Virus record (IMG/VR): IMGVR_UViG_3300029977_000003
Span: 1 to 50,842 of that record
Source: a virus
Length of the DNA: 50,842 bases
Direction: 5' to 3' (one strand)
A program made the translations under genes and the position numbers. The stretch's first letter is position 1. Each line of letters begins with the position of its first letter. Below the pieces are notes generated by a model. The model was not told where the DNA came from, made no database searches, and worked only from the letters and a program-made list of their open reading frames with translations. Positions 25,194 to 50,842 of the stretch are shown here, in pieces.

Positions 25194-25216
25194 CATGGTG
25201 AAAATGGAAAAAGAAA

Positions 25217-25241
25217 GGCCGGACCAAATCTTGGTCCGGCC
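25217..25241 (-). terminator. terminator after major capsid gene
   Basis: An 11-bp perfect stem (GGCCGGACCAA/TTGGTCCGGCC, loop 3 nt) followed on the minus strand by TTTCTTTTT. It should uncouple high capsid expression from the connector genes. Confidence 0.9.
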
Positions 25242-25267
25242 CTGACTTTTTACGGTCTTTTTTAGGA

Positions 25268-26242
25268 TCAGCTCAATACATCATAGAGGATGTATCCAAG
25301 GTCTGGTGCCAGGAGCTTCTGGTCATAGGCCATTTCGCCCTCGTACCTAATGGCCTTACGGGTGGGAAGTTCGATTGTCGCGACGCCCACGTTATAACCA
25401 TTGTTATAGCCAGTCCAGGCGAAGATGTACCCGCCCGTAGGCACCATTAGGCCTGGCCGCTCCGGAGCGTATACAAGTAGGAGGTTATCAGGGAACATGT
25501 AGGTCGGGTTAAGAGCCGAGCCCTCCGGGCCAGTATCGTGAAGAGCTCGACCAACCAAGACCTCATCGACATCAAAGAGACGAGCGAGAAGTTCGGGTGT
25601 TACGAGGCCCTTTACATCCGGCGCGGTAGGCGCATAGACCAGCTGGGCCTGGATCTTGGGGTGCATGCGAAGAGCGTTATAGACCTTAACCGACATCACG
25701 ATTTTGTTGGGGGAGATTCCGGTGATGCTTTCGATGTATTCCCTTGCACTGAAGATATCAGCAATGGGATCCGAGTTTTCGTTGTCCCACTTTACGGTCG
25801 GAGAAGACCCGTTCCAGAAGTTTACGCCGAGGCTCTTCCCGTTGTGATCGAAGAACTTCTCGACCCAGGTCTTCTCGCGCAAGAGCAAGAGCTGGTACAT
25901 TACGGTCTCGACTACCTGACGCTCCAGGTTGGGGATATCCGAGTTCTTGAACGTAGCAAGGGGCACGTCCCAGTGGAAGGCATAAATGTCGCAGAAGTAG
26001 GGCTCGGTTCGAGCGATCGCAAAGCCAGACCCAGCAGACTCCGCACCAGGAGCGCGCTTCTGGGCTTTGATCCGAAGCCAGGCCTCTTTGTCAAAGACCA
26101 AAACGAGGTCGCTTTGTTTCTCTACGTTTACGACGGGGAAGACGCGATCGGCAATGAACTTCTTGGTATCCTGGATATAAGCGACCGCGATCTGGGTCAA
26201 CACCTGATCAAAGTGGACTTCCTGGGTTGTAGGCTGAGGCAT
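25268..26242 (-). CDS. major capsid protein (HK97 fold)
   Basis: 324 aa. Features of the GpE/HK97-type capsid family: N-terminal 'LTQIAVAYIQDTKKFIADRV', 'FPVVNVEKQSD', 'NLERQVVETVMYQLLLLREK', 'NKIVMSVKVYNALRMHPKI' and a C-terminal 'TRKAIRYEGEMAYDQKLLAP'. It forms the icosahedral shell. A decoration protein gene is immediately upstream, a scaffold before that, and a strong terminator follows. A TGAGGAGGTGAGAG ribosome site fits high expression. Confidence 0.9.
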   Translation of the reverse strand: MPQPTTQEVHFDQVLTQIAVAYIQDTKKFIADRVFPVVNVEKQSDLVLVFDKEAWLRIKAQKRAPGAESAGSGFAIARTEPYFCDIYAFHWDVPLATFKNSDIPNLERQVVETVMYQLLLLREKTWVEKFFDHNGKSLGVNFWNGSSPTVKWDNENSDPIADIFSAREYIESITGISPNKIVMSVKVYNALRMHPKIQAQLVYAPTAPDVKGLVTPELLARLFDVDEVLVGRALHDTGPEGSALNPTYMFPDNLLLVYAPERPGLMVPTGGYIFAWTGYNNGYNVGVATIELPTRKAIRYEGEMAYDQKLLAPDLGYILYDVLS

Positions 26243-26256
26243 TGTCTCTCACCTCC

Positions 26257-26625
26257 TCACAGGGCCTTCTTCTCAGGGAGAATGAAGGCCGTAACAACCT
26301 GGCCAGCCTGCGCTGCAGCCTCAAGGGCTATACCAATTGGGTAGTAGCCCGTAGAGGCCGCAATAAGCCGGCCATCATCATCCGCGGTGAGGACGTCACC
26401 AATCGCGATGGCACCGCCTGCAACTACTTTTGAGATACCGAGCATGCGCACATTCGCAGCCTGCCCTTCCTTAGGCTTATCCTGGAGGATCCCGATCGGC
26501 AGCGTATCCGATTTAGCCTTCACAACCTTTCCGTTGCTGTTGAGCGCAACTGCCAGGAACTGCGCATTGGATAGGTCCTCACCGGACTCCAACGACACAT
26601 CGAAAAGTGAAAGTTCCCATGCCAT
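26257..26625 (-). CDS. capsid decoration protein (DUF2190-like)
   Basis: 122 aa. The pattern 'AQFLAVALNSNGKVVKAKSD', 'PIGILQDKPKEGQAANVRML', 'GISKVVAGGAIAIGDVLTAD' and 'GRLIAA...YYPIGIALEAA' is that of DUF2190 capsid-stabilising proteins. It likely binds the mature shell. ATG 26625 is used; GTG 26634 is an alternative start. Confidence 0.85.
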   Translation of the reverse strand: MAWELSLFDVSLESGEDLSNAQFLAVALNSNGKVVKAKSDTLPIGILQDKPKEGQAANVRMLGISKVVAGGAIAIGDVLTADDDGRLIAASTGYYPIGIALEAAAQAGQVVTAFILPEKKAL

Positions 26626-26630
26626 GGACC

Positions 26631-27524
26631 TCACCCCCTAAGCTGGCGATAAAGATCCGGGTTCTTCGTAAGAACCATGACCCGCGCTGCCTCGATGGAC
26701 TTAGCCGCACCCTTTGCAAGGAGTTCCTGGGCTTGCTTCTCTACGATATCCCACGGCGACTCCTCGACCTGACCAGCAGACCCAAGCTCCTTGAACAAGG
26801 GGCTAGCGGATACCACAGCCTCAAGTTTCTTGAAGGCTTCCTCGAGGCGGGTATCACCAGACTTTTTCATAGTGAAGAGCAAGTCTGCGATCTCTGGCGC
26901 GATGGACATCAAGCTCGGAATCTGAGACTTCATAGTCTCGATATATTCCTTCTTCTCGCGGATCAACCGCTCCTCTTCGAGGGCTTTGCGGAGAGCCTCC
27001 AGCTCAGCCTGGGCCTTCTGCAGGGCTTCAAGCTCAGCCGAGGGCTTCTGAGCCTCTTCCGCCTTTTCGATGGACTCTTGCTTCACTTCAGCTACATTAG
27101 GCTCGGATTTTGCAGCTTCCTCAGCGGCTGTGTTGGTAGAGCAGGAGGTTTCCTGGGGAGCAGGATAGCCATAGGGCTTGGGATAAGAATACTGAGGATA
27201 AGCTCCCGGATGCTGGTAAGGATACGGGTACGGGTAAGGCTTTACTCCCTCAGGCAGCGGGTACCCTACGAGCTTCCCCAATGCGGCGATCACCACATCA
27301 GGGATCAATCCTTCCTCAAACAGCGGATACAGAATCTCCAAGGCCTTCTTGACCTGGTCTTGCTGATCCGCTGTAAGGCCCTTTGTCTTCTTCTCTTCCT
27401 CTTGGAGAGTCTCCGGCATCTCTCCCACCTCCTTGAGAAGTAAAAATCGACGGCGGTTGGCGGGACTGCCAACCGCATCGACCCGCGGCACAAAGAGATC
27501 TTCAAGGCGCGCTTTTGCCCGCAT
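26631..27524 (-). CDS. scaffold-like protein with Tyr/Pro linker
   Basis: 297 aa between protease and decoration genes. The N-terminus has 'DAVGSPANRRRFLLLK', a motif found in proteins following XkdF-type proteases (VD.GANR..F.LLK). A Tyr/Pro-rich stretch (residues ~98-125, repeated PYPY) then a long Glu/Ala/Lys coiled coil (residues ~155-205) and a helical C-terminus follow. Coiled coil and position fit a prohead scaffold, which the protease would cleave. The Tyr/Pro linker is unusual. Confidence 0.7.
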   Translation of the reverse strand: MRAKARLEDLFVPRVDAVGSPANRRRFLLLKEVGEMPETLQEEEKKTKGLTADQQDQVKKALEILYPLFEEGLIPDVVIAALGKLVGYPLPEGVKPYPYPYPYQHPGAYPQYSYPKPYGYPAPQETSCSTNTAAEEAAKSEPNVAEVKQESIEKAEEAQKPSAELEALQKAQAELEALRKALEEERLIREKKEYIETMKSQIPSLMSIAPEIADLLFTMKKSGDTRLEEAFKKLEAVVSASPLFKELGSAGQVEESPWDIVEKQAQELLAKGAAKSIEAARVMVLTKNPDLYRQLRG

Positions 27525-27552: not shown

Positions 27553-29379
27553 CTAGTCAAGGGATTCTTGTAGTTTGTGCCTGATCCCCAAGCCCTGAAT
27601 AGACCAACCCGTAAGTTCTCCATTCTTGATTTTCTCCCATACCTCCCGCTCGGGGATCCAAACTCCTAAAACCCACTCTCCTTCCCGGACCAAACTGTCG
27701 GGACGCGATGGATCATAATAGAAAGAAGTGCGCGCTATAAAAGATTCGACCGGGAATGCTAAGATCGGCTCACCTTGATGATTTATTCCTACTTGTCTAC
27801 CAAAAATCAAGTACCGATGTGCGGCCTTCTCCACCTCATCCGGACTTATTATGTCTCCCTGAGCGTCTGGCTCATGAGGCGAAAGTACCACACCATAAAC
27901 GATCTGTTTCTCCTCATTCTTCCCGACCGGAATGAAAGGAGTCCCTTTCAGTGCGGATGGCGTATCAGACCTTCTGACAATCACGATTGGCGAGTCTTCC
28001 GATTCCCAAAGGATAAGGTAGTATCCGGTGATTTCCCTTCCTTCCAGCTTAAGCCTTAATAAGCCCGGCTCTTCCTCAAGGACAGTGGCCTCTCCTTCGT
28101 CAATCAGCTCGATTCTTGATGGAGTCTCCTTTGTTGGATTCAGAAGAGTACCAGGTTCGGGCTCAAACACGCCAGTCTTGGTGTACAAGGCCCTGTAGTA
28201 ATCCTCATCAAGTTCCACGCCAGCTACTTCTTCTCTAAGACGGGGATCATTATCAAGAGAAAACACCATCTTAGGATCATTGAGAAGAAGGTAGTAAATT
28301 GTGGTCGAGGGCCCAAATCTGATTACAATCTGGCCACGAAATGTTTGCCGGAAAATCTTAAAACGTGGCTTCGCCTTCTCTTGCGGCTTAAAATTTCCTT
28401 CCTCATACCAGGCCACAAGCTCTTCCCGCATGGCTTTTCGCTTCTCTTCGTCCTTCTCCTCCCAAAATCTTAATTCTGGCGGAACCCTCTCGCGCAGCCA
28501 GGATGGCAGCGCTGCCACCCCCACGGGCGGAAGCCAGTCTTTCTCGACTGCGTCATCTGAAAGAACATAGGGAGTTGGATCGGGAGTCACGAATAGCCAA
28601 TACCCTGACTCTCGGGCGGTCTCCTCGGCTTCGCCCGGAGGCAAAACGATGGCTCCGGCTTTTGCAAGCTCTACGGCCTCCCTCATCGACTTCGCCCGTG
28701 CAACAAACCGGAAAACGACCTTAGGAGGGAAGAGCTCATTTCCTTCCAGGAAATACTCGAAAAAGTAGGGCTTCCTGGCACCTGGGACCCAATACCCCCT
28801 ATCAATCACCACGAAGACACCGGGGAAGGATCGCGTCGCGCCAACCGGTATGCGATCGACTTTCCATGAACCATCCTTAATGACCTGTTCTGCTTTCTTT
28901 GGATCCCAGCCTTCCCTCCTCAGCCTCTCTTGGACTTCCGTTGGCCACTCATCCCAGTACTCGATCACGGTTTTCGGCCAATCCGGAGGGAATTCTGTTC
29001 GCCCCTCGACCTCTAACCACTCAATTGGGATGAGCTGGGCTTTTCGTTCGGCATAAAGTGAGCCAGGTCGGATCACCGTTCGTTTCTCGCCACGAATCGT
29101 AGTTTTTACCTCGCGCGGGAAGATGTAGCCCGTGTCCAGGTCGAACTTCCATACCGATTGGTCTTTCGCAATCTTCCTTCCTTGCTCTAGCGTGACTACC
29201 GGAGTCTTAATCGCACCCTCCACCTGAGCTGAAACAGTCCATCCTTCAGCAACTGAGTTTCGTGCGAAACGAAAGTCGAGGTGAACGCTCATGCCACGAT
29301 AGTGAGCTTGGACTACAAAGCGCTTTGGAGTATTAGGATCCTCCGGATACTCAGTAGTGGGCCCAAGTTGCTTTTCCAT
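27553..29379 (-). CDS. LigD-type 3'-phosphoesterase / XkdF prohead protease fusion
   Basis: 608 aa. The C-terminal 120 residues are an XkdF-like serine protease: 'YGVVLSPHEPDAQGDIIS', His534 in GINHQGEP, 'EGEWVLGVWIPEREVWEKI' and Ser593 in TGWSIQG. It would mature the prohead. Residues ~18-225 resemble the 3'-phosphoesterase domain of bacterial LigD: 'FVVQAHYRGMSVHLDFRFA' with H26, H33, D35 and R37 matching the H-x6-H-x-D-x-R metal site (spacing one longer), then 'IPVG', 'GVFVVIDRGYW' and 'YFLEGNELFPPKVVFRFV'. A second degenerate copy may cover ~340-460 ('IELIDEGEAT', 'LRLKLEGREITGYYLILW'). Prohead proteases are normally 150-250 aa. The neighbouring gene encodes a DNA ligase. The start is supported by length only; the ribosome site is weak. 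Confidence 0.75.
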   Translation of the reverse strand: MEKQLGPTTEYPEDPNTPKRFVVQAHYRGMSVHLDFRFARNSVAEGWTVSAQVEGAIKTPVVTLEQGRKIAKDQSVWKFDLDTGYIFPREVKTTIRGEKRTVIRPGSLYAERKAQLIPIEWLEVEGRTEFPPDWPKTVIEYWDEWPTEVQERLRREGWDPKKAEQVIKDGSWKVDRIPVGATRSFPGVFVVIDRGYWVPGARKPYFFEYFLEGNELFPPKVVFRFVARAKSMREAVELAKAGAIVLPPGEAEETARESGYWLFVTPDPTPYVLSDDAVEKDWLPPVGVAALPSWLRERVPPELRFWEEKDEEKRKAMREELVAWYEEGNFKPQEKAKPRFKIFRQTFRGQIVIRFGPSTTIYYLLLNDPKMVFSLDNDPRLREEVAGVELDEDYYRALYTKTGVFEPEPGTLLNPTKETPSRIELIDEGEATVLEEEPGLLRLKLEGREITGYYLILWESEDSPIVIVRRSDTPSALKGTPFIPVGKNEEKQIVYGVVLSPHEPDAQGDIISPDEVEKAAHRYLIFGRQVGINHQGEPILAFPVESFIARTSFYYDPSRPDSLVREGEWVLGVWIPEREVWEKIKNGELTGWSIQGLGIRHKLQESLD

Positions 29380-29426
29380 ACCTACTTAATCTTGACAGGA
29401 CTCTTATGGCTACGTCAAGGATTTTC

Positions 29427-32400
29427 TTATTTTTCGATATCAAGCAAAGAAGCGAACTCTTCCGGCGGCTCTTTCCTATGAGCGAAGAATGCAGCCTGAA
29501 TGGTTCCAATTCGGCTGCCGGGATCCTTTATGCCTACGGGAATCGGGTGCTGCCAAGATACATGGATTCCGCCCTTCTCATCTTTGAACGTGGTTATTTC
29601 CATGGGGGCTACTGTCAAGATGGTCCCAGGCTTGGGAGGCGAGGGGAACTTTATCGCATAAGAATTCCCAAATGCATACTCTCCCGGACCACGGTGTGGG
29701 ATTCCGAAGAACATTGTCCAAACTTTTGGATCGTCTAGACCCGTCCAGGCCTGCTTTTCTTCGTCCCAGTCCAGCTTTAGGTCCTTCTCGGTTAGCTTCT
29801 TCTTCGACTCGATCGGGACAATCTTTCCGGTTTTCTCGTCTAGCAGGCCTAGCCGACAGATATAGGTATCCGTCCATTCGAGATTTTTAAAGGCCTCTTC
29901 CTTTGTCCAAGTAGTTCCAGCTGGCCGAGGCTTGGGCATCCGACGATAGCCAAGAATTAGGCAATCAAGCTCAACTCGGTTCTTCAGTTTGATGACGGCT
30001 GTCCTAGCTTCCTGGGGATCGTACCTAAATGAGCCCAGTTTAGCCATCACTCCCTCGGTTGAGCGCCCTTTCTTGACTTGTCGGAACTCCTCTATTGCCT
30101 CGAGGAACGACTCTCTGTCTTTCACGATCTTGGTTTCGAAAACTTGGAGTATATAGCGCCCAAGCTTGATTGGCTTTGGAATAAGGTCCTGTAGGATCTT
30201 TAATCTCTCGGTGTATGGGAGCTGAGTTACATTCTTCCCATTCAGCCAAGCGATGTCGTGCACGAAGATCTTGATGTGGAAATCTTCTTTCGGCTCCTTC
30301 GCCGTCGCCATCCATGTCATTTGGGTCCTTGAAATCTGGTACTCATAACCCGGATCAAACTCAACAAACTCGCAGTCAAGGACGAATGATGGTGCAATCT
30401 TTTTCGCTAACCTCTCGATTCCAGGGAAATTATGGACTACATCGCTACCTTTCTCAGTAAATACATGGACTTTCTTGCCTCGGGAAAAGATGAAGCGTAG
30501 CCCATCGCCCTTAGGTTGCAGGACTATAACCTCGCCCTTCTCAACTGCCCGACGAGCCCACTTCTCCCATGCTAGTTCTGCTTCATGAGGGATGTAAAAC
30601 TCCCCAGCTACGTCGTAGTGCACAAAAGGTTTATCTGGATCTAACTTCTCGGGGTCCGTGATCAGCTTGGCCTTATACAGGAGTCTACGAGCCTCTTCGC
30701 CTTCCCGAACAACCCGTAGCTCGAAGGGAACCTTCCGTGCTACGAGCTCGTAGATGGGAAGGTAGTCCCAAGTGGGACCATTCGGGTCTAAGGAGAATTG
30801 CACGGGGAGGTTTACTTCGCTCTGAATGGCCCGCTGAATCTTGAGGAGAGCTCCGGGACTGGCATTCAGCCGAATGATTACGTCCACATCCCGGGGCGGA
30901 TGCTGACCATAAATCAAAGAGCCAGTAACCGACGCCCATTCGGGCTGTATCAAGATTTCATTGGGGAGTGCGCTCCATAGTGCAAAAAGGGCGTCTTTGA
31001 TGATCTCGGCTCGCTTCTTGTCCCATTCTCTAAGCTCTTCTTCCGAGGGAGGCTTGCTCTTAATATAGCCTCGCTTCTCAGCCTCGCGATAAGCCTCCCA
31101 ATAGGAAGAATGGTATTGCGGATCGGTTGGTTTTGGCGGGATAAGTGGGAAATAAATGGAACGAAGCGTATCGATGATCTTCCCAAAGTACCGCAGGACC
31201 AGGTCCAACGTCCAATCTCCCCATTTCTCTCCCGCCTTCAATCGTGGATAAGCAGAGTTTCCAAGGTATCTTGCATCAGCTAGCAATTGGCGCCATCTTT
31301 CGGCAGGATGCTCTAAATCATAATCAATGCCTGTCGCCATAAACTCTTCAAGATGGAGCTTAGCAAGCAGATTTATCTCCTGTCCTTCGTGGGTGAACTG
31401 GATATCTACTCCATGTTTCGCTCCGATTTCCTTAGCTAAGACGAGGGCCTCCTCTGGCGAGTCATAGTAAAACTCTCCAAAGTGGATTAGGTAGATCTTT
31501 GAAACGCCAGCCTTCTGTGCCCAAGAAGCTTCAGCAGCCCACGATGCATGGCCCCAAAGGTTGCCTTGGGCATCCCTCCGGGTGATGCCATCAGGGTGCG
31601 ATGCATCAAAAAATGCAAATGATGCTCCCTCCAGGCAGGCATCGCGATCGTCTCGAGATTCCCAGCCTAGGATGTCCGGGGCATAGACAAATGAGAACGA
31701 ATCTCCGTCTACTCTCAGCGCTGCAGCGGGAGCCCGGATCGAGTGAAGGACAGGATAAGGCGTGACTGAAATCCCATTAATCTTAGTCGGCTTTCGGAAA
31801 GGCATCTCGATTACATTGAAGCCAGCTTCCGCCAAGGCTTTATAGGCTGGCGGAGGCGCATAGATCACATCAGTTTTATCGATGGCTCCAATATGATCGG
31901 GATGAATATGAGTAATGACTACCACATCTGCCTTAACGCCGCGTGCAGAGCCCTTATCAAAACGTATCTTCTCGCCATTTACCTCAAGTAAGATGGAGGC
32001 ATTATTGCCTTCGCGATCGATGTTGCCTTTAACGCCGATAACCCTAATCCTCGCTTGGACGGATTTTTCGAGGAGCTCGACGTTAGGGAGCTCAACTTGC
32101 TCAATAAATGTTTGGACTCCAGGAGGAGTATCGAAGGCAATTGGGGCCGGATAAGGCCGAACGTCCTTCACGAAATACATGAAAAGTACATTTGCATCAG
32201 GCCACCATTTATCCAATTCCTCGGCGCTGACCCTATGGATGTTTATATAGTCTAGAACCTGGTCTCGTGGAATCGGAATAGGATCATGGAATTGCGCAAC
32301 GCCGAGAAGTTGCTGGTCTTCAATGATCGCGAGCCATTCCCCGGACATGTTAAAGCGCACCGATTTCAGGACGGCTTTCTTCTCCCCACGGATCAGCATG

Positions 32401-32462
32401 GTTCCGTGGGGTGGAACGAGGTAAAGCCCGCGGACAATCTCCGGAATCTCTCGATCCATCAT
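29427..32462 (-). CDS. ASCH-like / MBL-fold / nucleotidyltransferase / ATP-dependent DNA ligase fusion
   Basis: 1011 aa, at least three enzymatic domains. Residues ~10-110 look ASCH/PUA-like ('GTMLIRGEKKAVLKSVRF', 'LLGVAQFHDPIPI'). Residues ~135-370 are a metallo-beta-lactamase fold close to RNase Z/PhnP: THIHPDH at 184-190, H240, D263, H305, H327. Residues ~500-600 are a polymerase-beta-type nucleotidyltransferase: G514-S515 then D525-x-D527. Residues ~620-1000 are an ATP-dependent DNA ligase: motif I KGDGLR with Lys651, motif III 'VLDCEF', motif IV EGVMAK (803-808), motif V 'AVIKLKNRVELDCLILG', then an OB-like end. All key residues are present. It sits between portal and protease genes, overlapping the portal by four bases. 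It may process and join DNA ends. Confidence 0.8.
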   Translation of the reverse strand: MMDREIPEIVRGLYLVPPHGTMLIRGEKKAVLKSVRFNMSGEWLAIIEDQQLLGVAQFHDPIPIPRDQVLDYINIHRVSAEELDKWWPDANVLFMYFVKDVRPYPAPIAFDTPPGVQTFIEQVELPNVELLEKSVQARIRVIGVKGNIDREGNNASILLEVNGEKIRFDKGSARGVKADVVVITHIHPDHIGAIDKTDVIYAPPPAYKALAEAGFNVIEMPFRKPTKINGISVTPYPVLHSIRAPAAALRVDGDSFSFVYAPDILGWESRDDRDACLEGASFAFFDASHPDGITRRDAQGNLWGHASWAAEASWAQKAGVSKIYLIHFGEFYYDSPEEALVLAKEIGAKHGVDIQFTHEGQEINLLAKLHLEEFMATGIDYDLEHPAERWRQLLADARYLGNSAYPRLKAGEKWGDWTLDLVLRYFGKIIDTLRSIYFPLIPPKPTDPQYHSSYWEAYREAEKRGYIKSKPPSEEELREWDKKRAEIIKDALFALWSALPNEILIQPEWASVTGSLIYGQHPPRDVDVIIRLNASPGALLKIQRAIQSEVNLPVQFSLDPNGPTWDYLPIYELVARKVPFELRVVREGEEARRLLYKAKLITDPEKLDPDKPFVHYDVAGEFYIPHEAELAWEKWARRAVEKGEVIVLQPKGDGLRFIFSRGKKVHVFTEKGSDVVHNFPGIERLAKKIAPSFVLDCEFVEFDPGYEYQISRTQMTWMATAKEPKEDFHIKIFVHDIAWLNGKNVTQLPYTERLKILQDLIPKPIKLGRYILQVFETKIVKDRESFLEAIEEFRQVKKGRSTEGVMAKLGSFRYDPQEARTAVIKLKNRVELDCLILGYRRMPKPRPAGTTWTKEEAFKNLEWTDTYICRLGLLDEKTGKIVPIESKKKLTEKDLKLDWDEEKQAWTGLDDPKVWTMFFGIPHRGPGEYAFGNSYAIKFPSPPKPGTILTVAPMEITTFKDEKGGIHVSWQHPIPVGIKDPGSRIGTIQAAFFAHRKEPPEEFASLLDIEK

Positions 32463-33667
32463 GACCCTCCCAAGCCTACTAGCTCTCTTGTAAGTTTCGC
32501 AAGCGCGTTCTTCAAGTCCTCCGGAGCCTCGAGCTTCGCTACTGCGCCAATCAGGTCAACGAGTTCGTCAATCGTTGGCTTCCGCGGGAGCACTAGGCGA
32601 ATCTTTGGCGTTAACTTCGCATCTATTCCATTTAGACTAACGATCGTTCTTGCCACATCTCGCTGAAGCGCATTTGCAATCGCATCAAGACAAGTCTGAA
32701 TCCCAACTTCGAAGAGCGAACGCTTTTCCCGAGCTAGGGCATAAGAGCCGCGCGCTTCCATCCCGACCAAAATCAGATCAGCGAGAAGCGTATGGGCTAT
32801 CTCCTGATTATAGCGTTCAATAATATCAGAGGTTGAGAACTGTCTTCCGCCCGAAAGTGATAGTAACTTGAGATCAAAAAGAGGCTCGTTTGACCCCGCT
32901 GCTTTAGGCAGAATTAGGCCTTCCTCCTCGTCCCTTCGCAATTGTCTCATGAGCTCCCGAAGCTTTGCCATCTTCGCCTCATCTTTATACGTAGTCTGTG
33001 GCACGTATAGAATGGGAAGCCCAACCAAATCACGCTCCACTCCGATTCCTTCCAGGATCTGGAGGTGTTTCTTGAAGGTATACGGAACATAGGCGTTACG
33101 GAGGAGTGACCGGCCTGTAGGCGTATAGGAGTAACCCGGCGTTACGATGTGAAGTATCTTCCAGCGCGGAAGGAATACTTCTTCTCCGCTCAAAAGTCGC
33201 TGGTAGCATCCAAGTACATTTCCACGTGCATCAAATTCCCATCTTTCGATGGTCTCTGGCAGACGATAGGAAAGCTTTGCCAAAGAGACTCTTCCGTCCA
33301 TCGTTCTGTATACTTCTTCAAAAACAGAGAATCCGAATATTACGAAATTAGTAGCCTGGAATAGGAGCTCCGGACTCAGACTTGGCTCCAGCATCCTGAA
33401 GTCTTCGGAGACCATTTCTGCAGCTGTTTGAGCCTCCTTCGAATCATCGGCCGGCTCGATCACAAGATCAGCCTGCCCCATGAATTGTTTCATTGCGAAG
33501 ACGATGGCACCAATGGTGGGGTCGTTTTCGGCCATTTCCCGATACACCTTGAAGGCCTTACGACCCTGGAGATCCCGCAGAAACTCCTCGGAGACAATCC
33601 CGGCCCAGCGCTGGAGACCGGTCTCGCCAAACTCCCGTTCTATGTCTAGCTGTTTAACCACCCGCAT
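32459..33667 (-). CDS. portal protein (DUF935-like)
   Basis: 402 aa. 'FKVYREMAENDPTIGAIVFAMKQF', in two parts, 'FGFSVFEEVYR', 'RWKILHIVTPGYSYTPTGRS', 'LRNAYVPYTFKKH' and 'IIERYNQEIAHTLLADLILVG' match DUF935/Mu gp29-type portals. Twelve copies form the ring through which DNA enters and leaves the capsid. It overlaps the small gene upstream by 14 bases and the ligase fusion downstream by four. Confidence 0.9.
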   Translation of the reverse strand: MRVVKQLDIEREFGETGLQRWAGIVSEEFLRDLQGRKAFKVYREMAENDPTIGAIVFAMKQFMGQADLVIEPADDSKEAQTAAEMVSEDFRMLEPSLSPELLFQATNFVIFGFSVFEEVYRTMDGRVSLAKLSYRLPETIERWEFDARGNVLGCYQRLLSGEEVFLPRWKILHIVTPGYSYTPTGRSLLRNAYVPYTFKKHLQILEGIGVERDLVGLPILYVPQTTYKDEAKMAKLRELMRQLRRDEEEGLILPKAAGSNEPLFDLKLLSLSGGRQFSTSDIIERYNQEIAHTLLADLILVGMEARGSYALAREKRSLFEVGIQTCLDAIANALQRDVARTIVSLNGIDAKLTPKIRLVLPRKPTIDELVDLIGAVAKLEAPEDLKNALAKLTRELVGLGGS

Positions 33668-34375: not shown

Positions 34376-34660
34376 ATGAGCTTCCCTCTTAGTGAGCTAA
34401 ACGTTCCATATGATGTGACCGAGGACCAAGCAAAGGAGATTCAGTGCTTGAGCTATGAAGCCCTCCGGCTCTGGTTACTTAAAGCGTGCGAGATGATGCG
34501 GACGGAATCGCCTTCTAGCATCAAAGATATGAAAACATTTGCGACTATAGTCGACAAAGTGATACTCATTCTCCGCATACTAGGATTCAAGCCCCAGAGC
34601 AAGGACGAATTTGACAAGATCCTGGCCAGGCTAGCCTCAAGCGATGAATCAAAAGATTAA
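34376..34660 (+). CDS. terminase small subunit (putative)
   Basis: 94 aa, helical, directly upstream of and overlapping the large terminase by 17 bases. 'DVTEDQAKEIQCLSYEALRL' and 'WLLKACEMMRTESPSSIKDM', then 'IVDKVILILRILGF'. No clear HTH is visible, so the name rests on position. Small terminases select phage DNA at the packaging site. Confidence 0.55.
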   Translation: MSFPLSELNVPYDVTEDQAKEIQCLSYEALRLWLLKACEMMRTESPSSIKDMKTFATIVDKVILILRILGFKPQSKDEFDKILARLASSDESKD

Positions 34661-36047
34661 ACCTTCTGATTTCTGTCGTAGAGTCCTGGGGGAATCGCCC
34701 TATGACCTCCAGGCAGAGATCATGGATTCGCTCCTCGAATCTAAGCGGATTGCTGTAGCTGCTGCAAACGGAGTTGGGAAGACATGGGCCGCTGCTAGGA
34801 TTGCAGCATGGTTTCTAATCTGCATCCCACAATCCTTAGTTGTCACGACTGCCCCGACCTACCGCCAGGTCCGCTTTTTGATCTGGCGAGAGCTCGCTGC
34901 AATTTATCAGAACCTTGTGAAGAGATTCCCGGGTCGGGATTTCGGAAAGTGCGTGAGCACAAGATGGGAGACCCATAACTCAAGCCTTGCTCTTGGTTTT
35001 GCTGCTTCCGAGTACAAAGTAGATCGCTTCCAGGGCCTTCATGCGCCAAATCTTCTCGTGATTGTAGACGAGGCATCTGGGATTAGCGATGCCATCTATG
35101 AACAGATCCTGGCTACGCTGCGCGGGAAGAATTCCTACCTCTTCATGATCGGCAACCCACTCCGCTCCTCCGGCCCATTCGCCGACGCCTTCCTCTCAGG
35201 GACATTCAAGACCTTCAAAATCTCGGCTTTCGATAGCCCGAACGTTAAGGCTAAGAAGGTGGTTGTTCCTGGCCTTGTAACTCTCGAAGACATAGAGCGT
35301 GACAGGAGACTCTTCGGCGAGGACTCGGTTTATTGGCGGACTCGCATCCTTGCGGAGTTTCCCAAAGAGGAGGAGGGCGCGCTTTTTTCCTTGGGCGATA
35401 TCCTCAATGCCCAGTACCTCGAACGAGATCCTTCCTGTCCTGTAGAGGCGGGTTTCGATCCCGCAAGCGGGTCATCTGGCTCGGCCTCGGTAATCGTCTT
35501 TCGGCAGGGACCGGCCGCCTATCGCCTGGAAACGCTGACGGCCAAAAACTTAATGGAGATGGCGGAGAAAGCCCATAGTCTGATCCTTGAAGAGCACGCA
35601 GCGCGCGTAAAGGTCGATGCGCTAGGCCTCTCTGCTGGCGTGGCCGATAGGTTAGCCGAGCTCGCTTCTGGGCTTTATGAAGTGATTCCTATCCGCGGAT
35701 CTGAAAAGTCGGTGGAAGGCTATGTAAACCTGAGGACCGAGATGTGGGTGTACTTTGCAGAACTTGTAAAGCGGGCGCAGGCGGGTGGGCCAGTCTTCGC
35801 GGACCGGAGGGTAGTAAATGACCTCCTTACGATTCAGCTCGAGATCTCCCCATCGGGAAAACTTGGGCTTTCGAAGAAATCTTATGGAAGACCGACATTC
35901 GATTTTGGCGATGCCCTGGTCTACGCATTTTGGAACCCTGGTGGGATCTCTGACCTCGAATCGCTTATTTCCGCCGACTTCGAGCCGATCACGATTCCTA
36001 AGGAGTCTCCTTTTGTTCACGATGAGAGGCCTTGGAAATCGCTTTGA
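34644..36047 (+). CDS. terminase large subunit
   Basis: 467 aa. ATPase: Walker A AANGVGKT near residue 40, 'TTAPTYRQVRFLIWREL', and Walker B 'LLVIVDEASG' near residue 140. Nuclease (RNase H-like): 'AGFDPASG', 'VKVDALGLSAGVADRL' and 'FDFGDALVYAFW' carry the expected acidic residues. It pumps DNA into the prohead and cuts it. Its final 50 bases overlap antisense with a leftward gene. Confidence 0.95.
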   Translation: MNQKIKPSDFCRRVLGESPYDLQAEIMDSLLESKRIAVAAANGVGKTWAAARIAAWFLICIPQSLVVTTAPTYRQVRFLIWRELAAIYQNLVKRFPGRDFGKCVSTRWETHNSSLALGFAASEYKVDRFQGLHAPNLLVIVDEASGISDAIYEQILATLRGKNSYLFMIGNPLRSSGPFADAFLSGTFKTFKISAFDSPNVKAKKVVVPGLVTLEDIERDRRLFGEDSVYWRTRILAEFPKEEEGALFSLGDILNAQYLERDPSCPVEAGFDPASGSSGSASVIVFRQGPAAYRLETLTAKNLMEMAEKAHSLILEEHAARVKVDALGLSAGVADRLAELASGLYEVIPIRGSEKSVEGYVNLRTEMWVYFAELVKRAQAGGPVFADRRVVNDLLTIQLEISPSGKLGLSKKSYGRPTFDFGDALVYAFWNPGGISDLESLISADFEPITIPKESPFVHDERPWKSL

Positions 36048-50590: not shown

Positions 50591-50842
50591 CCTTGCCAGA
50601 TCCCGGTTGCTTTCTTGCGGTCCTAAATTTGGCAAGTTTTCCGAAATTGTTAAAAAATTCTTGAAATGTTGCAGGTGCAGCACATGCTGCATGTGTTGTA
50701 TGTGCCGCAATGGAAGCGGGTTTTCCATAGGTGCATGATTATACGCGATATTTTTCGAAAATGCAAGATGGAGGAGACATGAACGCGAGTCTAATCATGT
50801 TTTAACGCCCCACGCCCCACGCCCACGCCCACGCCCACGCCC
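50591..50842. other. right-edge non-coding region and GC repeat
   Basis: AT-rich to about 50800 with palindrome copy 2 (50681-50695) and TTTTCGAAAAT near 50747. An 8-codon frame (ATG 50779, site GGAGGAG) reads MNASLIMF. From 50806 the sequence is CCCCACG/CCCACG repeats to the edge, G-rich on the minus strand. Confidence 0.6.
50681..50695. promoter_or_regulatory. 15-bp palindrome, copy 2
   Basis: Identical CACATGCTGCATGTG to 48963-48977, here between the ComM-like gene and the right edge. The flanks also share GTGCNGC-like words. Confidence 0.5.

Follow-up and report, generated by a model that had tools for sequence, protein, structure and literature searches.

Gene Content of the Head Region

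The window analysed here is IMG/VR virus record IMGVR_UViG_3300029977_000003 at its full length of 50,842 nucleotides. Its head genes lie on the minus strand and are transcribed in the order portal, 1011-aa fusion, 608-aa fusion, scaffold-like protein, cement protein and major capsid protein. The two fusions form the cassette considered below. The first (29427-32462, minus strand) joins an ASCH-like domain, a metallo-beta-lactamase (MBL) domain, a helical domain, a nucleotidyltransferase (NT) and an ATP-dependent DNA ligase, and the second (27553-29379, minus strand) joins two phosphoesterase domains resembling the 3'-phosphoesterase (PE) of LigD, termed PE1 and PE2, to an XkdF prohead protease. 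The portal stop and the ligase-fusion start overlap by 4 nt; the gap between the two fusions is 47 nt and that between the PE fusion and the scaffold-like gene is 28 nt. An earlier note on this DNA had described portal, ligase fusion, PE-protease fusion and scaffold as four consecutive genes, and this arrangement is real, with the scaffold lying outside the interval quoted there and owing its label to position.

Domains of the PE-Protease Fusion

The first 475 residues of the 608-aa protein consist of two LigD-phosphoesterase-like domains, and the remainder carries an XkdF-type (Peptidase_S78_2) prohead maturation protease (27589-27921, minus strand). The protease is recognized directly (Pfam E 4.5e-27, 95 bits against a cut-off of 24; PHROG head maturation protease E 1.5e-25), and its Foldseek matches are viral XkdF proteins. 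Pfam missed the PE and NT domains of the window proteins, and our own profiles were required to detect them.

PE1 (28480-29349, minus strand) is interrupted by an insertion of ~100 residues and matches the NCBIfam model LigD_PE (TIGR02777) at a sub-threshold E of 0.006. With a profile of 12 relatives, the LigD-PE structures rank first in the PDB (E 0.0025), the match being collinear in two pieces. Profile-profile comparison by hhalign with four cellular LigD PE domains gives E 8e-8; PE1 is assigned by profile. These four domains came from plasmids and were retrieved with a query composed of two pieces of 3p4h and eight filler residues. The H, H, D and R of LigD-PE bind metal and phosphate; PE1 keeps them as H26, H33, D35 and R37, which are invariant in the 12 aligned sequences and present in 64 of 68 PE1 copies.

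PE2 (27958-28380, minus strand) is best seen in the AlphaFold (AF2) model of the fusion (pLDDT 85). Residues 337-473 superpose on 3p43 with a Z of 15.8, with 118 residues aligned at a root-mean-square deviation of 2.4. The structure search is headed by all six LigD-PE entries, the next row has a Z of 4.8, and hhalign gives E 5e-7. The catalytic residues of PE2 are lost in the window and kept in L023, L024, L039, L042, L047, L050, L051, L074 and other relatives. Homology of both copies to the LigD phosphoesterase is established, for PE1 through profile comparison and for PE2 through profile and predicted structure combined. The single phosphoesterase proposed earlier is therefore present by profile and model, yet as two PE-like copies, of which the second is degenerate in the window.

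In two relatives, intein-like insertions of the LAGLIDADG type break up PE1 (L042:6927-8024 and L066:6573-7694). That of L042 falls between the two metal-binding histidines of the active site, and that of L066 includes an intein splicing domain. The L047 terminase likewise carries an intein-like insertion.

Domains of the Ligase Fusion

Domain boundaries inside the 1011-aa protein, all on the minus strand, are approximate. The C-terminal part is an ATP-dependent DNA ligase core, composed of adenylation domain and OB fold (29457-30542; Pfam DNA_ligase_A_M, PF01068, E 2e-18). The window protein holds motifs I (KGDGLR), III, IV (TEG) and V (KLK), and in an alignment of 21 relatives the K-x-DG, the EG of motif IV and the K of motif V are invariant. 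No N-terminal DNA-binding domain of the ligase was found in the 1011-aa fusion. Upstream lies an NT of the Pol-beta superfamily (30675-30956), assigned by its GS...DVD...E motif; G30, D41, D43 and R60 are invariant in 20 sequences, with the G, the D-x-D and the later D/E kept, and some relatives weakly match NTP_transf_2, DNA_pol_B_palm or DUF6932. Only the NT-ligase part (residues 500-1011) was modelled by AF2, since the whole-length alignment put shuffled domains in the wrong place. The model (pLDDT 80) matches archaeal and human DNA ligases, with a Foldseek E of ~3e-17 and a VIA Z of ~24 over ~300 residues.

The N-terminal half starts with an ASCH-like domain (32094-32435), whose profile matches TTHA0113 in the PDB (2dp9/1wk2, E 1.7e-9). 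It is followed by the MBL domain (31377-32054; Pfam Lactamase_B_2, E 1e-13), which resembles RNase Z and phosphodiesterases. The complete HxHxDH...H...D...H motif is invariant across 11 aligned sequences, and profile matches in the PDB, with E values of 2e-14 to 6e-13 for 6b9v, 1zkp and RNase Z, put the domain closest to RNase Z-like and related hydrolases. A specific relation to Apyc1 was considered for this domain and rejected, the Apyc1 match being weaker than those to RNase Z and other hydrolases. Between MBL and NT lies a conserved, unassigned helical domain (30999-31331), shared with 10 contigs and sometimes adjoining XkdF.

The ligase takes unusual forms in several relatives. In six contigs (L023:4377-8308, L024:4377-8371, L039:4992-8969, L040, L041 and L046) the adenylation domain is divided over two consecutive reading frames, with the motif I side in the first and motifs IV-V starting the second; the frames overlap by 4 nt in L023 and L024. 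Either a naturally split ligase or translational coupling or frameshifting could account for this. In L056, L057, L059, L062 and L065 the ligase domain is positioned after PE, and in several of them a simple K-x-DG pattern missed motif I, which is possibly K-Y-N-G.

Neighbouring Genes

The portal protein (32459-33667, minus strand, 402 aa) is of the Mu gp29 type (Pfam Portal_Mu E 8e-32; PHROG 113 portal E 5e-61). The scaffold-like protein (26631-27524, minus strand) gave no significant named family in Pfam or PHROG searches; besides its position, it is recognized by a local profile common to the relatives and a conserved N-terminal PAN...F motif. The head decoration or cement protein (26257-26634, minus strand; Pfam Phage_cement_2 E 3e-10) and the major capsid protein (25268-26242, minus strand; PHROG 1005 E 2e-76) follow, and a strong terminator-like hairpin with a 13-bp stem and a subsequent T run (25215-25243, minus strand) ends the operon. 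The large terminase (34644-36047) is encoded on the plus strand, divergent from the head operon. No shared terminal repeat was found in the window. Its positions 1-200 are low-complexity DNA rich in GGTGGC, and positions 50800-50842 are low-complexity DNA made of CCCACG repeats.

Conservation of the Cassette

Selection on the fusions was estimated by comparison with L020, a relative whose proteins are 93-95% identical. The ratio of nonsynonymous to synonymous substitution (dN/dS) comes to 0.036 in the ligase fusion and 0.052 in the PE fusion, next to 0.033 in the portal and 0.040 in the capsid protein, and the single domains range from 0.021 to 0.099. Both fusions are held as strictly as the structural genes, with strong purifying selection acting on every domain.

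To place the cassette among relatives, we surveyed IMG/VR with PE-based scans and with one scan on NT-ligase alone, and annotated the resulting 79 distinct contigs, ANMV-1 among them, with local profiles, which were iterated on the same contig set that they describe. Ligase was detected in 78 contigs, PE1 in 75, PE2 and NT in 74 each, XkdF in 42, ASCH in 38 and MBL in 14. Ligase and PE1 share a reading frame in 60 of the 79 contigs, and XkdF shares one with PE or ligase in 27. The largest fusions reach 2241 aa, and the domain order is shuffled among members. The contigs newly picked on NT-ligase alone carry PE1 in 37 of 41 cases; two of the four exceptions end within the cassette, one (L113) has an MBL arrangement in place of PE, and one is an unrelated ligase. 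In L113 (7294-10293) it is a different protease that is joined to the ligase: the NT-MBL-ligase protein begins with a Mu I-protease-like part, ends in ChaB and precedes XkdF. L005 (2275-6771) displays a related locus with an MBL lacking HxHxDH, no ligase adenylation domain and an HNH gene between the parts; here NT and the helical domain are fused straight to XkdF.

The gene upstream of the cassette is a portal, and several unrelated portal families occur in this position: Portal_Mu in the window, Phage_portal in L033, L038 and L062, Phage_portal_3 in ANMV-1, SPP1_portal in L067 and PHROG 10963 in L044, L055 and L064. Downstream lie XkdF and proteins resembling scaffolds, followed by capsid proteins that belong to two or more families. 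The link between portal, ligase and PE/protease, for which the earlier note had advised a search in related contigs, is thus conserved across these portal families, two capsid families, ANMV-1 and the ~79 contigs, and a wide survey displays it as a recurrent feature rather than a random association. As judged from sequence, the portal-ligase-PE order is not a matter of chance, since dozens of divergent contigs repeat it and comparison with the 93%-identical relative shows purifying selection on every domain.

Outside IMG/VR the family is scarcely represented. A tblastn search of the ligase fusion against deposited phage records gave no match, the only PE match among 50,697 such records was to ANMV-1, and a search of genome contigs returned only two contigs of metagenome-assembled genomes, one labelled Dehalococcoidia and one Archaeoglobales. 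ANMV-1 is an archaeal virus whose protein AJP62006.1, annotated as ATP-dependent DNA ligase, belongs to the family and is an NT-ligase-PE1-PE2 fusion directly after the portal. It differs from the window in having no XkdF, MBL or ASCH in the protein, and its PE role is unannotated. An IMG/VR scan using this protein by itself gave no match. The neighbouring AJP62005.1 (L002:1913-3193) is annotated as MutT-like phage hydrolase and matches Phage_portal_3, pointing at a misannotation. In cultured phages such as RHph_TM16 of Rhizobium and Mufasa8 of Arthrobacter, a related short XkdF stands directly after the portal with no cassette between them, which indicates that the cassette is optional at this place and dispensable for head building.

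A Proposed Virion-Borne DNA Repair Protein

Fused extra domains point to DNA as the substrate. Six members (L097, L098, L099, L102, L105 and L107) contain a uracil-DNA glycosylase (UDG), situated between the ligase and the terminal PE-XkdF part of the cassette reading frames, and at least eight fusions contain D12 adenine-specific DNA methyltransferases. Uracil removal, 3'-end cleaning, nucleotide addition and ligation would, taken together, resemble base-excision and single-strand-break repair.

The reading that we favour, at roughly even confidence, is that the cassette encodes a self-processing, virion-packaged polyvalent protein which mends the viral DNA by healing and sealing its nicks, gaps and ends. 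Its DNA-repair part is well supported, and the head-borne location can be strongly inferred, because the ligase is nearly always fused or adjacent to PE and often to a prohead protease. XkdF proteases work inside procapsids, hence a polypeptide bearing XkdF should be built in and cut there. The argument from XkdF to cargo would parallel the one made for polyvalent proteins in passages of Iyer et al. 2017 (PMC5512222).

We propose the following sequence of events. The fusion proteins would be produced together with the proteins of the head, and their XkdF part would carry them into the procapsid, near portal and scaffold. Upon maturation the protease would free the enzymes, which would remain in the particle and either accompany the DNA into the cell or work on it inside the head. 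There, PE would heal 3' ends, NT would add or fill in nucleotides and the ligase would seal nicks or ends, with UDG providing the base-removal step in other members. Such a machine could mend single-strand breaks, gaps and ends in the viral genome at a stage when neither host nor viral genes can yet contribute by their expression, and circularisation of compatible ends would be one possible outcome.

Several observations weigh against this proposal. XkdF is unfused or undetected in about half of the contigs, and a recognizable cassette ligase is the sole ligase in 30 of 32 records, so that it may simply be the general replication ligase of the virus. In the viral PE1 sequences inspected, the position of the histidine in the cellular EDHP motif appears to hold other residues; PE1 chemistry may therefore differ from that of LigD-PE, which uses this histidine as a further catalytic residue. 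What MBL and ASCH would contribute to simple DNA-end repair is not obvious. Finally, the contigs are metagenomic, possibly fragments and in several cases near-identical, which brings the number of independent lineages below 79.

The cassette ligase is also the starting point of the first alternative, in which the enzymes work late inside the cell and seal replicated DNA so that the terminase packages intact molecules. Packaging motors need an intact substrate, and no second ligase, ATP- or NAD-dependent, was found in the 32 records, leaving that of the cassette as the only one. Placement in the head operon would then reflect late timing and proximity to the motor instead of cargo, and it fits this alternative as well. 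However, fusion to a prohead protease in 27 contigs is odd for a cytosolic enzyme, as the protease is an internal component of the procapsid, and we regard late intracellular repair as unlikely.

We consider less probable still the mechanism put forward in the earlier note, in which enzymes carried in the particle would trim and extend the injected ends, join them in the manner of non-homologous end joining (NHEJ) and so circularise the genome independently of Ku. Bacterial and archaeal end joining typically combines LigD-PE with a ligase, and circularisation of the mycobacteriophages Corndog and Omega depends on Ku and LigD (PMC8068969). The cassette shares with LigD and stand-alone LigD-type PE a homologous PE fold (Z up to 15.8) with H-H-D-R in PE1, as well as an ATP-dependent ligase core that lacks a large N-terminal DNA-binding domain and is encoded in the same polypeptide or operon as PE. 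The analogy is weaker in other respects. No AEP or primase-type polymerase was found in either window fusion, the NT is of the Pol-beta type, PE is duplicated with a large insertion, one catalytic histidine appears replaced, PE2 is degenerate in the window, and the enzymes have their genes in the head module and are attached to a protease. Ku was absent from all 26 records searched, in agreement with the earlier note, while a control genome was positive; the records are possibly fragments, and the host might supply a Ku. The UDG of six relatives points at least equally to base-excision or single-strand-break repair, and when fused in this way suits the former better. End joining is possible and not specifically indicated.

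Equally improbable in our view is a polyvalent role mainly in counter-defence, with, for example, MBL acting on nucleotide signals, methyltransferases countering restriction, and NT, ligase and PE acting on RNA or restriction-cut DNA. Polyvalent proteins are an anti-host strategy known from the passages of PMC5512222 on them, Apyc1 is among the weaker relatives of the MBL domain, and ASCH, 2H phosphoesterase and DNA methyltransferases are present in family members. Yet the constant core consists of NT, ligase and PE, with MBL in only 14 and ASCH in 38 of the 79 contigs. The nearest relatives of the ligase are DNA ligases, and UDG acts specifically on DNA. RNA repair, suggested by the RNase Z-like MBL and ASCH, ranks lower, as ligase and UDG are DNA enzymes.

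Relation to Polyvalent Proteins

Capsid-packaged multidomain polyvalent proteins of portal-type phages were described as a class by Iyer et al. 2017, in passages that portray them as probably packaged and as cleaved by a peptidase of their own (PMC5512222). According to these passages, polyvalent proteins are very long, carry shuffled enzymatic domains and are encoded among packaging genes, as are the cassette fusions, and both include 2H phosphoesterases and Pol-beta NTases. The cassette proteins likewise combine at least two unrelated enzymatic domains in one protein encoded with packaging genes. They differ in that the prohead maturation protease itself serves as their peptidase and their core is directed to DNA break repair; the passages of PMC5512222 concerned describe neither DNA ligase nor LigD-PE, deal with RNA ligases where ligases are mentioned, and do not contain the word XkdF.

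Packaged multidomain proteins and each of the single domains are already known, while our search of an open-access library found no description of the cassette family or of a ligase-NT-LigD-PE core bound to a prohead protease. There is a real chance that the family constitutes a distinct class. More tentatively, and with somewhat less than even confidence, we suggest a class of virion-borne DNA repair machines not described before, shared by archaeal and bacterial tailed viruses, in which a self-processing polyprotein of NT, ligase, PE and at times UDG is directed into the head through fusion to the maturation protease and carries a nearly complete base-excision and strand-break repair pathway into the cell.

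If the proteins are packaged, these viruses would ship DNA-damage repair inside the particle, with bearing on the survival of viral genomes in sediments and in hot or long-lived environments and on how linear DNA becomes ready for replication upon entry. The conserved family of 79 distinct contigs is practically absent from deposited phage records. The cassette is also a compact enzyme set open to assay, and we propose as a rule that domains fused to XkdF are candidate head cargo.

A simpler, cultured case of the same design is gene 20 of Arthrobacter phage Kovu (L123:957-2090). Although annotated as 'RNA ligase', its product consists of a 2H phosphoesterase joined to an XkdF protease. It is similar to the cassette family in placing a nucleic-acid end enzyme N-terminal to XkdF in the head region, and differs in having no ligase, PE or NT. 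Its 2H part is homologous to the N-terminus of family member L099, and further phages of Arthrobacter and Mycobacterium bear the 'RNA ligase' label as well.

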